Positions 3,392-48,395 of a DNA stretch of 51,855 bases are shown piece by piece. The notes below the pieces were generated by a model. The model was not told where the DNA came from, did not search any database, and was given only the letters and a program-made list of their open reading frames with translations. The stretch covers positions 1-51,855 of the forward strand of contig NZ_JAGEVG010000026.1 of assembly GCF_017581925.1 (NCBI RefSeq), read 5' to 3'. This stretch comes from Gelidibacter pelagius. Lineage in GTDB: Bacteria; Bacteroidota; Bacteroidia; Flavobacteriales; Flavobacteriaceae. The number at the start of each line of letters is the position of its first letter. Position 1 is the stretch's first letter. A program made the position numbers and the translations under genes.

Positions 3392-4591
3392 CTACACCCT
3401 CACATGTCCATCACCAAACACATAATACTTATTGGTGACCAATTGCTTTAATCCCAATGGGCCTCTGTGGTGCAATTTATCGGTGCTGATGGCCAGCTCT
3501 GCGCCAACACCCATTTGTCCACCGTCCGTAAAACGTGTGGATGCGTTATGGTAAACGGCCGCACTATCTACTTGCTCCATGAATTTCTTTGCCAGTTGAT
3601 GGTCTTCGGTTAGAATGGAAGATGAATGTCCACCAGAATAGGTATTGATCATCTCAATAGCAATATCTTCATTCTCAGCTTCTGCAATTAGAAGCTTCAT
3701 GGCCAAAAATTCTTCGTACCAAGTGTCCTCGTTTTCGATTTTGGCTTCGTCGGTTAGAATTTCCCCAACCTTGTCATCAACAAGCAGTTCGACGTCCAAA
3801 TTGTGTAAAATGGCTTGAAGATCTTTCAGCTTCGTTTCGTAATTTGGAATGTTTTTGTCAATTAAGACTTTATCCAAAGCGTTACATCCTGAGATTTTAT
3901 CAGTTTTCGCATTGACAATCACTTTGACAGTTTTTTCCCAATCCGCATCTTTGGCAACATATAGGAAGTTATTCCCTCTGCCGCTGATCAACACAGCACA
4001 AGTGGCATGGTCTTTTACGAATTTAATCAAACGTTCGCCACCTCTTGGGACGATCAAGTCAATCTTTTCTGTAGGATTCTTTAAAAACTCCTGTGTTTCT
4101 TCACGTTGAAGATGCAATAGCTTGATCCAATCTTTGGAAAGACCATTTTCCTCTAAAGCTTGGTGCCAGCATTTTTCGAGAATAAGATTACTGTTCAATG
4201 CCTCTTTCCCGCCTTTTAAAAGGATTTTATTGTTCGCTTTAAAGGCTAATACCGCAGCTTCAATAGTCACATCCGGTCGTGATTCATAAATGATCATGAT
4301 GGTGCCAAAAGGAGCGGTCTTGTTAGTGATCTGCAATCCGCTATCTAAGGTTAGATCTGAGATCACCTGACCTACAGGATCTTCTTGAGCTTCTACTTCT
4401 GATATGGCAGTAATCATTCCGTCAATTTTGGAATCATCGACAACCAATCGGTCGTAAAGTGCTCGATCGCTTTTGCCAAAGGCATCCAAATCTTTTTGGT
4501 TTGCTTTTAAAATGTTGTTTCGCTCTTTATCAATAATTGTCATCATTGATTGTAGCACTTTATTTTTTATATCTGTTTTTAATAGTTTCAT
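3392..4591 (-). CDS. proA: Glutamate-5-semialdehyde dehydrogenase (gamma-glutamyl phosphate reductase)
   Basis: The 399-residue enzyme reduces gamma-glutamyl phosphate to glutamate 5-semialdehyde with NADPH, the second step of proline synthesis. It is an aldehyde-dehydrogenase-fold protein. Visible motifs include YESRPDVT at 102-109, KGGKEA at 126-131 and VPRGGERLI at 181-189. The catalytic cysteine is C236 within SGCNALDKVLID. It follows proC and proB on the same strand, but a 295-base repeat-rich spacer separates proB from proA, so proA may be expressed partly independently. The ATG start at 4591 agrees with the family N-terminus. Confidence 0.96.
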   Translation of the reverse strand: MKLLKTDIKNKVLQSMMTIIDKERNNILKANQKDLDAFGKSDRALYDRLVVDDSKIDGMITAISEVEAQEDPVGQVISDLTLDSGLQITNKTAPFGTIMIIYESRPDVTIEAAVLAFKANNKILLKGGKEALNSNLILEKCWHQALEENGLSKDWIKLLHLQREETQEFLKNPTEKIDLIVPRGGERLIKFVKDHATCAVLISGRGNNFLYVAKDADWEKTVKVIVNAKTDKISGCNALDKVLIDKNIPNYETKLKDLQAILHNLDVELLVDDKVGEILTDEAKIENEDTWYEEFLAMKLLIAEAENEDIAIEMINTYSGGHSSSILTEDHQLAKKFMEQVDSAAVYHNASTRFTDGGQMGVGAELAISTDKLHHRGPLGLKQLVTNKYYVFGDGHVRV

Positions 4592-6766: not shown

Positions 6767-9031
6767 TTAATCCTCTTTTTTATTTTCTCTTGGTTTACGG
6801 TCATCACGACGATCATCACGACCTCTATTGTCGCGAGATCCACGATTATCGCGTCCTCCGCTTCTATTATCTCTATTATTATCTCTTGGTGGTCTTGCTA
6901 CATAACCTTCTGGTTTATCCAACAATGCCTTACGAGATACTTTTTCCTTACGCGTCTTAGGATCGACTCCGAAGTATTTCACTTCAAAAACATCACCCAT
7001 ATTAACGACGTCCGAAACATTTTCTGTACGTTCCCAAGCCAATTCACTAACGTGCAATAACACTTCGTTTCCTGGAGCATCTTCATATTCTACAACCGCA
7101 CCAAAATCAAGCATCTTAATGACTTTTACCAAGTAAGAGCCACCAACGCTTGGTTTGAACAATATCGAATCGATTTTTGCCAATACCGCATCAATCCCTT
7201 CTTGGTTGGTACCTAAAATCTCCACAATACCTTCTTCAGTAACAGGATCTTCGTTGATAACAATCGTAGTCTTGGTCTCTTTTTGCAACTCTTGAATGAC
7301 TTTTCCACCAGGTCCAATCAACGCACCAATGAATTCGTTAGGAATCACACGGGTAACCATTTTTGGAGCATGAGCTTTAACATCAGCATTTGGTTCAGCA
7401 ATAGTTTCTACCAATTTGTCAAGGATGTGCAAACGACCATCTCGTGCTTGCTTTAAGGCATTCACTAAAATTTCGTAAGATAAACCTTTAACCTTGATGT
7501 CCATTTGACAAGCAGTAATACCATCAGCAGTACCAGTCACTTTAAAGTCCATATCACCTAAGTGATCTTCATCACCAAGAATATCAGACAATACAGCATA
7601 TTTTCCAGAATCTGAATCAGAAATCAAGCCCATAGCAATTCCAGATACAGGTTTCTTTAACTGAACCCCAGCATCCATCAAAGCCATAGTACCAGCACAA
7701 ACCGTTGCCATAGAAGACGAACCGTTAGATTCCAATACTTCTGAAACAACACGTACTGTGTATGGACACTCATCAGGTACCATTCCTTTTAAGGCACGTT
7801 GTGCCAAGTTTCCGTGTCCTACTTCACGACGAGACGTTCCACGGATTGGACGTGCTTCACCAGTTGAAAAAGGAGGGAAGTTATAATGTAAATAGAAACG
7901 CTCTTCACCTTCAAAAGATGGCATGTCAATTTGGTTGGCTTCTCTTGAAGTTCCCAAAGTAACCGTTGCCAACGCTTGAGTTTCCCCACGCGTAAAAAGT
8001 GCAGAACCGTGTGTAGATGGTAGATAATCGATTTCACACCAAATTGGTCTGATCTCATCTGTTTTTCTTCCATCCAAACGCAAACCTTCATTTAAGGTGA
8101 GGTCACGGATAGCATCCTTTTCTGCTTTATAATAATAAGTAGATACCATGCCGCCATAATCTTCTAATTCTTCTTCAGAAAAACTAGCTTTTATGTCTTC
8201 TTTAATGGCATCAAATGCAGCACTTCTTTCATGTTTAGCCGATCCAGCTTTTGCTATTGCATACACTTTGTCGTATGCCATATCGTGAATTTTCTTCGCT
8301 AAATCTTCATCAGTTCTTTCTGGCTCATATTCACGAACCGCTTTCTTTCCAACGGCCTCGGCCAATCTTACCTGAGCAGCACATTGAACTTTAATCGCTT
8401 CGTGGGCAAATTTAATGGCTTCTGCCATTTCCTCTTCAGAAATTTCATCCATTTCACCTTCCACCATCATCACTGAATCCGCTGAAGCACCAATCATCAT
8501 ATCGATGTCAGATTCTTCTAATTGCGCGCGTGTAGGATTGATGATAAACTCACCATTGATACGACCGACTCTGGCTTCAGAGATGGCACATTCAAAAGGG
8601 AAATCAGATAATTGGATAGCAGCAGATGCGGCTAATCCAGCCATAGCATCAGGCATCACGTCTTCGTCATGAGACATCAATTGAATCATCACTTGAGTTT
8701 CAGCGTGGTAATCACTTGGGAATAATGGACGCAATACACGATCCACCAAACGCATGGTCAATACTTCGCCGTCACTTGGTCTTGCTTCTCTTTTGAAGAA
8801 ACCACCAGGATAACGTCCTGCAGCAGCAAATTTCTCTCTATAGTCTACTGTTAACGGTAAAAAGTCAACATCACTTTGTTTGTAATTGGAAACAACCGTA
8901 CATAATAACATACATTTTCCTGATTGCACAACAACCGAACCATGAGCTTGTTTAGCCAATTTTCCGGTTTCGATGGAGATTGTACGTCCATCACCAAGGT
9001 CAATGACCTCTTTAAAAACTTTTGGAATCAT
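6767..9031 (-). CDS. pnp: Polyribonucleotide nucleotidyltransferase (PNPase)
   Basis: The 754-residue enzyme degrades RNA 3'-to-5' phosphorolytically and is part of RNA turnover. Two RNase PH domains fill residues 1 to about 550 and include the [10 protein letters not shown] segment and the conserved [13 protein letters not shown] segment. A KH domain (about 555-628, with IGPGGKVIQ) and an S1 domain (about 629-706, with GAVVEY and LLHVSEL) follow. Residues 707-754 form a basic, low-complexity RDNRG-rich tail that is longer than in many relatives and likely binds RNA or partners. It lies downstream of rpsO in the same direction, the classic rpsO-pnp order, with structured spacer RNA between them. 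Confidence 0.97.
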
Positions 9032-46624: not shown

Positions 46625-47347
46625 CTATTTACCTTCATTCCAGTAATAACTATCCGGATGTTCACGTTTCCCAAATACAGCGGTGCCAACCCTGACCATC
46701 GTTGCACCTTCTTCAATGGCAATTTCCAAGTCTCCACTCATTCCCATCGATAATTCATTCACGGAAATATCTTTATCAAGGAGTTGTTTTTGTATGTTTT
46801 TTAATAGTTTGAAGCACTTCCGAACCTGCTCATCTTCTGCAGAAAATAGACCAATCGTCATCAGTCCTTTGATGTTGATCCGGTCAAACTGCTGGACTTC
46901 CAAAGCGAATTTCACGGCATTTTCAGGAACCATTCCAAATTTGCTATCTTCATAAGACGTATTGAATTGTAAATAGGCATCCATCGTTCTATCTTCATAT
47001 TCCAACCTGTTTTGTAATTTCTCTGCCAATCTGAGCCGATCTAAGGACTGAATACAGTCGACATCATATCTTATCAATTCCTTGACTTTATTGGTTTGGA
47101 GATGGCCTATAAAGTGTTTTTGGTGGACGAAGGGCTTTAGGCTTTCATACTTTTCTTTAATCTCTTGAATCTTGTTTTCACCAATTAAGGTTTGATGTTT
47201 GCTAAAAGCAATTTTAATATTTTCTGCTGAGACGGTTTTTGTGGCCAATAGCAATTTTACGTCATCAGGATTTCGGTTGGCGTTTTTACAAGCGTTTTCA
47301 ATTCTACCAAGGATAGTTGCGATATTGTTCTGAATCGTGGTTTCCAT
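46625..47347 (-). CDS. yggS: YggS/PROSC-family pyridoxal-phosphate homeostasis protein
   Basis: The product is 240 residues from the ATG at 47347; longer frames to 47371 would overlap the AAA+ gene and are not conserved. It is a single-domain PLP-binding barrel (alanine racemase N-terminal type) with the PLP lysine K37 in LLATKTV. IGENKIQEIKEKY, HFIGHLQTNKVKEL, LMTIGLFSAED, LSMGMSGDLEIAIEEGATMVRVG and the final FGKR are the family signatures. It keeps free PLP low and has no known catalytic role. Only one base separates its ATG from the stop codon of the upstream AAA+ gene, so the two are translationally coupled. Confidence 0.95.
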   Translation of the reverse strand: METTIQNNIATILGRIENACKNANRNPDDVKLLLATKTVSAENIKIAFSKHQTLIGENKIQEIKEKYESLKPFVHQKHFIGHLQTNKVKELIRYDVDCIQSLDRLRLAEKLQNRLEYEDRTMDAYLQFNTSYEDSKFGMVPENAVKFALEVQQFDRINIKGLMTIGLFSAEDEQVRKCFKLLKNIQKQLLDKDISVNELSMGMSGDLEIAIEEGATMVRVGTAVFGKREHPDSYYWNEGK

Positions 47348-47348
47348 A

Positions 47349-48395
47349 TTAAAATGCATTACTTTCAACATAAACCCAGACTTCTACACCAGCGTCGGTG
47401 GTTGCCAAAATTCTGTTGGAATTTGGAGCTGCCATTTTATCTGTCTCTACAAGTTCTTCACCAGTGATTTCAAACACCATTCCTTTTAATGTATCGCTCT
47501 TTTCTTTAGATTTTATGGCAATTTGAGGCGTGGTTGTATGACTATGCTCAGTCATAGAAACATCATTAATTGTTGAATCTTTTAATGTATATCCAGATAA
47601 AGCGCCATCTATTCCTTCGAGCTTTCTGCCATAATGTTGAATCTGTAAATCTGGCGACCTTAATGTGTCATAAGAAAATAACAAGTGTTTTTTCTGCTTT
47701 TCAAATCGGATGACATTGGCTTTAATTTGTTGGTGGATGCTATCTTTTGCCTCTGCGTAAGATATGCCGTAGCTTCTTTTTATGGTATTGAGATTTTTAG
47801 GAAAACCTGATAATATACTATCGTAATATTTGTTGAGATCTTCTTTAGTAGGTAATGTGTACCCTAATCTGATCTGAAACCGTCTTAATAAGGCAGTATC
47901 GATAATTCCTAAATGGTTCGTAGCACAAATCAATAAGGCGTTATCTGGCAAATTATCTATGAGCTGAAGTAGGGTATTCACCAAACGCTTCATTTCCCCA
48001 GAATCTTTTTCATCATAATCTCTTAGTTTACCGATAAAATCGAATTCATCTATAAATAAAATTGCATCATCATTCGATGCTTTTTTGAAGAGCTCAGATA
48101 AATTTTTTGCTGTTTCTCCTAATTTTGACGATACAAATCCGCTTAAATTAATGGCAATCACCTTTTTGTTTAAGGCCTGTCCTATGGCGTAGGCAGTAGC
48201 AGTTTTTCCACATCCGGTATGGCCATATAGTAAGATTTTATTGTCAACAGGAATATTCAGGCTGTTGAGCGCATTGATATAGGTGAATTCTTCCAATAAC
48301 TGATTGATGCGCGCCCTGATGTCTTCATTGAGATGAAGCTGGTCAAGTGGGATGACCTTGTGTTTTGGGTTCAAATAGGTGCTGTGATGTGCCAT
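47349..48395 (-). CDS. AAA+ ATPase fused to a degenerate gamma-glutamylcyclotransferase (AIG2-like) domain
   Basis: The 348-residue protein has two parts. Residues about 15-200 are a small AAA+ ATPase with Walker A GHTGCGKT (58-65), Walker B ILFIDEFDF (112-120), sensor-1 ATN (158-160) and arginine-finger candidates R171/R172. Residues about 238-348 resemble a GGCT/AIG2-like domain: LLFSYDTLRSPDLQ corresponds to the usual LFxYGTLxxPxVQ. YGRKLEGIDGALSGY follows, then GMVFEITGEELVETDK and VEVWVYV. The glycine of the YGTL loop is Asp (D243), and the usual Tyr-Glu after AAAD is Met-Ala (321-322), so GGCT catalysis is unlikely. No signal peptide is present, so the protein is cytosolic. It is the first gene of a two-gene unit with yggS. 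The ATPase part is certain. The second domain is recognised from memory of the family and should be confirmed. Confidence 0.85.
   Translation of the reverse strand: MAHHSTYLNPKHKVIPLDQLHLNEDIRARINQLLEEFTYINALNSLNIPVDNKILLYGHTGCGKTATAYAIGQALNKKVIAINLSGFVSSKLGETAKNLSELFKKASNDDAILFIDEFDFIGKLRDYDEKDSGEMKRLVNTLLQLIDNLPDNALLICATNHLGIIDTALLRRFQIRLGYTLPTKEDLNKYYDSILSGFPKNLNTIKRSYGISYAEAKDSIHQQIKANVIRFEKQKKHLLFSYDTLRSPDLQIQHYGRKLEGIDGALSGYTLKDSTINDVSMTEHSHTTTPQIAIKSKEKSDTLKGMVFEITGEELVETDKMAAPNSNRILATTDAGVEVWVYVESNAF

Follow-up and report, generated by a model that had tools for sequence, protein, structure and literature searches.

A gene of Gelidibacter pelagius appears to join a AAA+ ATPase to a gamma-glutamylcyclotransferase (GGCT)-like domain, directly beside a gene of the yggS family of PLP-homeostasis genes, and this raises the question of what an ATPase of this kind does there and which of its neighbors it works with. 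The window, meaning the whole stretch of DNA that we analyzed, is a contig of 51,855 nucleotides (contig C22 of the genome). On its minus strand, positions 47349-48395 form a single open frame that runs from an ATG at 48395 to a stop codon at 47349, whereas frame 1 of the plus strand over the same interval contains many stops. The one continuous frame described in the first-pass annotation is thus open over all 348 codons. The features of the locus are collected in the table.

Features of the AAA-GGCT locus in the window (positions on the contig; residues numbered in the encoded protein)
Feature	Positions	Strand	Characteristics
yggS2	46625..47347	-	240 aa + stop from METT start; TIGR00044; separate clade; PLP contacts kept
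Whole AAA-GGCT gene	47349..48395	-	348 aa + stop; at least 11 further fusions
Classic-clade AAA domain, residues 1-235	47691..48395	-	PF00004; PADLOC IetA; invariant columns; AlphaFold model
GGCT/AIG2-fold domain (predicted), residues 236-348	47352..47690	-	apparently catalytically degenerate; model pLDDT 81; Foldseek; alignment
AAA motifs of the window protein			Walker A 58-65; Walker B ~112-117; sensor 1 N160; Arg171/172

The N-terminal part of the protein matched PF00004 over residues 54-178 (E 1.2e-29), and a P-loop AAA core with Walker A, Walker B, sensor 1 and arginine fingers is present. When 23 sequences including the window protein were aligned, G58, T60-T65, D116-E117, N160 and R171-R172 proved invariant or nearly so, and A66, which adjoins Walker A, was nearly invariant; we take these columns to be the motifs that bear the names Walker A, Walker B and sensor 1. 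The profile match and the conserved columns bear out the earlier description of a canonical AAA domain. Its structural neighbors in Foldseek were p97, FtsH and Vps4. AAA proteins that thread their substrates are expected to have an aromatic residue in the pore loop. Since this position reads K/R-L-G or K/R-I-G in the present family instead, a ClpX-like mode of action is not assured.

Among named AAA families, IetA was the best match both in NCBIfam (NF042959) and in PADLOC (E 9.9e-60), and it is the closest named AAA sequence, aligned over window residues 18-238. In the IetAS system, IetA has an adjacent subtilase, IetS. The window protein scored 177.4 bits against NF042959, whose equivalog cut-off is 510, and its match begins only at position 92 of the 367 in the profile, so that the N-terminal ~90 residues of IetA are absent, as they are from the whole ~237-aa AAA family. 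No IetS-like subtilase lies beside the window gene or elsewhere on its contig, the two subtilase matches in the genome being on contigs C15 and C37; the partner is YggS2 instead. Because it has neither the N-terminal region nor the subtilase, the window gene was filed as IetA-related and membership in IetA was rejected. Two IetA-length relatives in genomes G634 and G574 (loci L208 and L209) were found beside a gene for a subtilase of 815-828 aa on the opposite strand, and are probably IetAS loci in Bacteroidota.

An anti-phage system derived from IetAS, in which YggS2 has taken the place of the subtilase, could be imagined from the top rank of IetA in two libraries and from the subtilase genes that adjoin the longer IetA-like genes L208 and L209. 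We regard this origin as very improbable. The score of the window protein is far from the cut-off, although the IetA-length L208 itself reaches only 191.1 bits, and the missing N-terminal region and the location of both subtilases on other contigs also speak against it. Moreover, the gene occupies the same chromosomal place in the fusion-bearing Gelidibacter, Bizionia and Winogradskyella, and the AAA gene is present in all four g55 genomes of a kin sample of 98 genomes, unlike a patchy defense gene. When eight neighbors of the window gene were searched with PADLOC, the sole match was that of an OmpA-family protein to the MotB-like ZorB, via the OmpA region.

The C-terminal part had no match in Pfam, PF06094 included, over residues 236-348, and its family was approached through relatives. 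Against PF06094 (cut-off 22.8), the ortholog L037 scored 24.3 and L035 scored 14.4, L036 and L038 gave no match, and three intact fusions reached 31.5-35.0; alignments of seven, and later eighteen, sequences bridge residues 236-348 to free and fused PF06094-matching proteins. AlphaFold returned a mean pLDDT of 84 for a model built from 23 sequences and 81 for a model of the GGCT domain built from 12. With the domain model, Foldseek retrieved human GGCT, GGACT, ChaC2, PH0828 and AIG2-like proteins from the PDB (best E 2.1e-5, TM 0.74). Ranks 1-31 were GGCT/AIG2 proteins or proteins of that fold, and the matches listed from rank 32 on had a probability of 0.13 or less. The comparison of a predicted structure with AIG2/GGCT structures, which had been suggested as a check, thus agrees with the family first proposed: the predicted fold of residues 236-348 is that of GGCT/AIG2, and a different fold was ruled out by the Foldseek matches of the model. 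When the PDB was searched by sequence, neither the domain by itself nor a 7-row profile produced a convincing match (best E 1.1 and 0.64). Within its own genome, the domain as query found the fused copy alone (E up to 1e-4), and the PF06094 profile matched nothing, missing even the fused copy.

The YG(S/T)L loop and a Glu are the catalytic features of the GGCT family. Aligning the window domain with intact GGCTs, both fused and free, confirmed that it has Asp243 at the glycine of YGTL and Ala322 at the catalytic Glu, and the domain appears to be catalytically degenerate. It shares the fold of gamma-glutamyl cyclotransferases and AIG2-like proteins (PF06094; GGCT, GGACT) and, by way of its intact relatives, their sequence, but differs from them in its fusion to a AAA ATPase and in the loss of the loop Gly and the Glu. 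A GGCT-like fold is also fused to another enzyme in allophanate hydrolase and urea amidolyase (Foldseek 4iss and 5i8i), where the partner protein is a different one; the GGCT-like domains of these enzymes are not known to have GGCT activity.

A scan of genome contigs, in which 80 of 349 confirmed relatives were listed, contained at least 11 full-length fusions besides the window among the matches listed (L101-L111). They come from four Gelidibacter, Bizionia, Xanthomarina, Winogradskyella, Lacinutrix, Tenacibaculum holothuriorum and two Weeksellaceae. With the window, the same fusion is found in at least 12 sequences from several genera of Flavobacteriaceae and Weeksellaceae, and it is therefore neither a product of chance nor an assembly error; a frameshift was ruled out on the same grounds. 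Another 55 of the 80 listed relatives (L126-L180) match in the AAA part only, no further than residue 259, and are nearly all archaeal, with 31-40% identity; two of them served as the outgroup of the AAA tree. In viral contigs, a scan found eight weak relatives, 28-36% identical, none of which extends past residue 230.

Three of the 12 listed fusions (L108, L109 and L111) keep both YGTL and the Glu, and with L105 and L107 the number that retain the Glu rises to five of 12. The loss is accordingly lineage-specific: it stands for Gelidibacter, but not as a universal property of the fused family. An HP motif is present in the three intact fusions and gone in the nine others; it is no family-wide mark, because the free relatives L033 and L034 also lack it. 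All listed fusions fall within one 25-row clade of the AAA tree (support 100/96), and domain-less AAA genes occur in at least three places inside this clade, some of the forks being weakly supported. Three Gelidibacter congeners have an AAA-only gene (L113, L115 and L117), and in a fourth, G002, no member of this AAA family was found, the sole match covering residues 53-186 (E 1.9e-16). On the simplest reading of the tree, a single fusion would have been followed by decay and repeated deletion of the domain; several independent fusions are also conceivable. Outside the fusion clade, at L097, a free intact GGCT gene ends ~40 nt before the AAA gene, which links AAA and GGCT beyond the fusion itself. 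A separate peculiarity was seen at L109 (same place as L081), where the fusion stop and yggS2 are separated by ~0.5 kb containing a small ORF (~7018-7568) and a near-copy (~45 nt) of the 3' end of the fusion gene directly precedes yggS2, as if something had been inserted at the end of the fusion gene. The yggS2 of this locus holds an internal stop.

Among the intact fusions, three pairs had a dN of the GGCT part that was 0.92-1.08 times that of the AAA part, as against 3.3-9.6 times in ten Gelidibacter pairs. The dN/dS was 0.15-0.27 for the GGCT part in these ten pairs and 0.02-0.04 for the AAA part in the nine that could be computed, and these ratios are rough because dS was saturated in several pairs. 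The accelerated change, together with the nine of 12 listed fusions that lack YGTL plus Glu and the domain-less genes inside the fusion clade, would be expected if GGCT were a vestigial passenger that lost its activity after the fusion and is decaying toward deletion, leaving the AAA part as the sole functional partner of YggS2. This view, which we consider somewhat unlikely, concerns GGCT only and is compatible with an AAA-YggS2 partnership as proposed below. It sits less well with the dN/dS of the domain, which indicates constraint even with saturated dS, with a model that is well ordered save one loop, and with 12 domain residues (L3, F5, Y7, G70, E74, L80, D84, R93, T97, G101, W105 and Y107) that are invariant in all 12 listed fusions. 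The GGCT domain of Gelidibacter thus seems to be under purifying selection despite changing faster than the AAA part, and the fused family offers a graded series of GGCT domains from intact to degenerate.

We then turned to the neighboring gene. From its METT start at 47347, it begins one base after the AAA-GGCT stop, and the one-base gap to yggS in the first-pass annotation is correct given this start; an alternative in-frame ATG upstream, at 47371, would overlap the AAA-GGCT stop. The product scored 187.3 bits against TIGR00044 (cut-off 106.25), the YggS/PLPHP/PLPBP family. However, the canonical yggS of this genome sits on contig C5, and a canonical YggS with 34-42% identity to the window protein was found in all 73 + 5 genomes searched. 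A second copy, 49-91% identical to the window protein (whose own value is 100%) and here named YggS2, occurs in 38 of 74 AAA genomes. This tally comprises the 73 searched genomes minus G002, plus G446 and G460, and excludes G362, where the AAA match is partial, covering 161 positions and beginning at base 134 of the contig. In a tree, 27 YggS2 and 11 canonical YggS rows separate with support of 100/99. An ordinary yggS as the neighbor is ruled out by the canonical copy elsewhere and by the separate clade, so that the claimed link to a PLP gene stood while the neighbor itself had to be reassigned to a separate YggS2 family.

YggS2 keeps the PLP contacts of the family: K37, K136, S204, R219 and T222 match K36, K137, S205, R220 and T223 of E. 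coli YggS, the contact positions being those given in the available text of PMC9601805. The PLP lysine and the phosphate-site residues are kept in the 27 YggS2 proteins, save for one Ser at T222 and one shortened row. Conserved differences from canonical YggS are Cys98 and, in the tail, Trp236/Glu238. Judged by these residues, YggS2 would be a second PLP-binding protein.

Of the 38 genomes with both genes, 36 have them on the same strand and no more than 1 kb apart, with yggS2 downstream in 29 and upstream in seven; the exceptions are G037 and G321, where the two genes are on different contigs. The two genes overlap by 4 nt at L047, L050, L098 and L099. Part of the neighborhood signal is shared synteny within genera, and the two gene orders and the 4-nt overlaps favor function over frozen synteny. 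In the kin sample, AAA was found in 17 genomes (E 3.6e-66 or better), YggS2 in 11 and both in nine; counted by genus, the numbers were seven, six and four of 75. The hypergeometric p for co-occurrence was 7e-7 over genomes and 4e-4 over genera, values uncorrected for kinship beyond the genus. Only six of the 36 genomes with an adjoining YggS2 carry the fusion. The AAA frames in the other 30 are open for 310 codons at most, too short for a fusion, and the linkage therefore belongs to the AAA part and not to the fusion as such. A recurrent AAA-YggS2 gene pairing is thus well supported. Since 36 of the 74 AAA genomes have no YggS2, the ATPase also has a role without it, and G029 and G030 have YggS2 without this AAA. 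Copies of yggS2 with no AAA neighbor were seen at L088, near MocR and GNAT genes, at L090, near a gene for a PLP-dependent decarboxylase, and at L211 and L212; the surroundings at L088 and L090 are likewise related to PLP. These results go beyond what had first been claimed, because the recurrent pair consists of the AAA protein and a dedicated YggS paralog; GGCT is a lineage-specific addition, degenerate in Gelidibacter.

Over 52 loci labeled as 24 genera, genes up to 6 kb away from the AAA gene were clustered into families. YggS2 was present in 11 of these genera, a MarR-type regulator in seven, a CPVC redoxin-like protein in six and DUF2024 in five. In T. holothuriorum, the genes for the redoxin-like protein, MarR, AAA-GGCT and YggS2 follow one another with small gaps. 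A gene for a class I glutamine amidotransferase adjoins those for YggS2 and AAA in G060 and, in a different arrangement, in G460, a genome from another taxonomic order; at L049 and L207, in two distant lineages that differ in gene order, the amidotransferase gene stands between or beside yggS2 and AAA. Regulators of the MocR type bind PLP. One accompanies the AAA-yggS2 set, along with a GNAT gene, at L084 and L207 (MocR was assigned by Pfam in L091 and L207 and GNAT in L207 and L088, the rest by sequence likeness). The gene for GcvP, a PLP enzyme, is found upstream and in the same orientation at three loci of Tenacibaculum, and no more than several kb away at four loci of g55, its identity being confirmed by Pfam in two of the seven. 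The window gene has genes for Nqr subunits and an OmpA-family protein on its flanks, and none of MarR, CPVC redoxin-like protein, DUF2024, glutamine amidotransferase, MocR, GNAT or GcvP was found near it. At Lacinutrix L108, a DUF2024 gene (4316-4576) and a gene (3589-4308) for an exported-looking protein of 240 aa that has no Pfam match lie upstream, and by eye both recur upstream in Aquimarina (L125). The MarR-type regulators beside the AAA genes at L111 (5395-5994) and L097 (5243-5827) have C-terminal tails rich in Cys (MCxTCxxY...HxCxL...DC), which hints at a sensor of metal or redox state.

The recurrence of MarR, the redoxin-like protein and DUF2024, the gene order in T. holothuriorum, the YggS2-amidotransferase-AAA clusters arranged differently in two lineages and the Cys-rich MarR tail would all suit a thiol or electrophile stress module. 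The AAA protein would then be a stress remodeler, YggS2 would buffer PLP or reactive aldehydes, GGCT or the amidotransferase would work on gamma-glutamyl compounds, and MarR, the redoxin-like protein and DUF2024 would provide control or support. We think this unlikely, given that none of these neighbors turned up at distances of up to 6 kb from the window gene and that 17 of the 28 YggS2-bearing loci (of 52) have none of MarR, redoxin-like protein and DUF2024; the 28 leave out the yggS2 of L104, which was removed by the ORF-overlap filter and found there otherwise. Furthermore, the redoxin-like protein has no Pfam or NCBIfam match, and DUF2024 is hardly mentioned in open-licence PMC text.

Our best explanation, offered tentatively, is that the gene encodes an ATP-driven, IetA-related remodeler partnered with YggS2 in PLP handling, with GGCT as a formerly enzymatic accessory. 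The protein, which has one AAA domain, would act as the partner of the PLP-binding YggS2, and its ring would use ATP to open YggS2 or a PLP-dependent client enzyme, letting PLP load or release, much as mitochondrial ClpX acts on ALA synthase. The GGCT domain may have been a gamma-glutamyl cyclotransferase that still had its catalytic residues when it became fused to the AAA gene. Gelidibacter and its relatives would have kept it only as a non-catalytic accessory for docking or ligand binding, and it appears to have been deleted in sister lineages. The explanation is favored by the recurrent gene pairing and co-occurrence, by the PLP contacts that YggS2 keeps and by the PLP-related MocR and GcvP genes near several of the loci; the dN/dS of GGCT and the free GGCT gene at L097 speak for it as well. 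We infer the physical partnership, the ATP-driven loading or release of PLP and the role of GGCT from genome context.

Such a partner would fit several published findings, as far as the available text of each source goes. E. coli YggS binds PLP with an affinity of ~1 nM and releases it very slowly, a behavior that its authors see as speaking against a role as supplier (PMC9601805). With a release factor driven by ATP, this difficulty would be resolved. Mitochondrial ClpX partially unfolds ALAS and thereby promotes the incorporation of PLP (PMC7077987). Mice that lack CLPP accumulate CLPX-VWA8 as well as PLPBP, and in their testis PLPBP is reported to co-migrate with CLPX; this precedent is indirect, because in CLPP-null fibroblasts the rise in PLPBP was not significant and PLPBP mRNA was also up (PMC10743472). 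The likeness to the mitochondrial system thus lies in a AAA+ protein that promotes PLP incorporation and in the co-accumulation and co-migration of CLPX and PLPBP (PMC7077987 and PMC10743472). The AAA family and the client are different, however, and the available text of these papers contains no gene pairing or dedicated PLPBP paralog.

The AAA genomes without YggS2, the YggS2 genomes without AAA and the non-aromatic pore loop count against the PLP model, which also leaves unexplained the gamma-glutamyl chemistry implied by the GGCT and amidotransferase partners. A broader version, which we hold to be rather doubtful, is an undescribed bacterial PLP machine in which a AAA+ ring with a dedicated PLP-homeostasis paralog would strip or insert PLP by hydrolyzing ATP, and a gamma-glutamyl-acting third part, either the fused GGCT or the neighboring glutamine amidotransferase, is recurrent. 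We found no description of an AAA-GGCT fusion or of a bacterial AAA-YggS2 pair in open-licence PMC text, which is weak evidence of novelty.

The pairing of AAA and YggS2 parallels the link between CLPX and PLPBP in mouse mitochondria, as described in the available text of PMC10743472. An ATPase partner tied by its genes to a YggS paralog would make it testable in vitro how PLP leaves or reaches such proteins. Taken together, the AAA-YggS2 pair points to an undescribed vitamin-B6-handling module in Bacteroidota.
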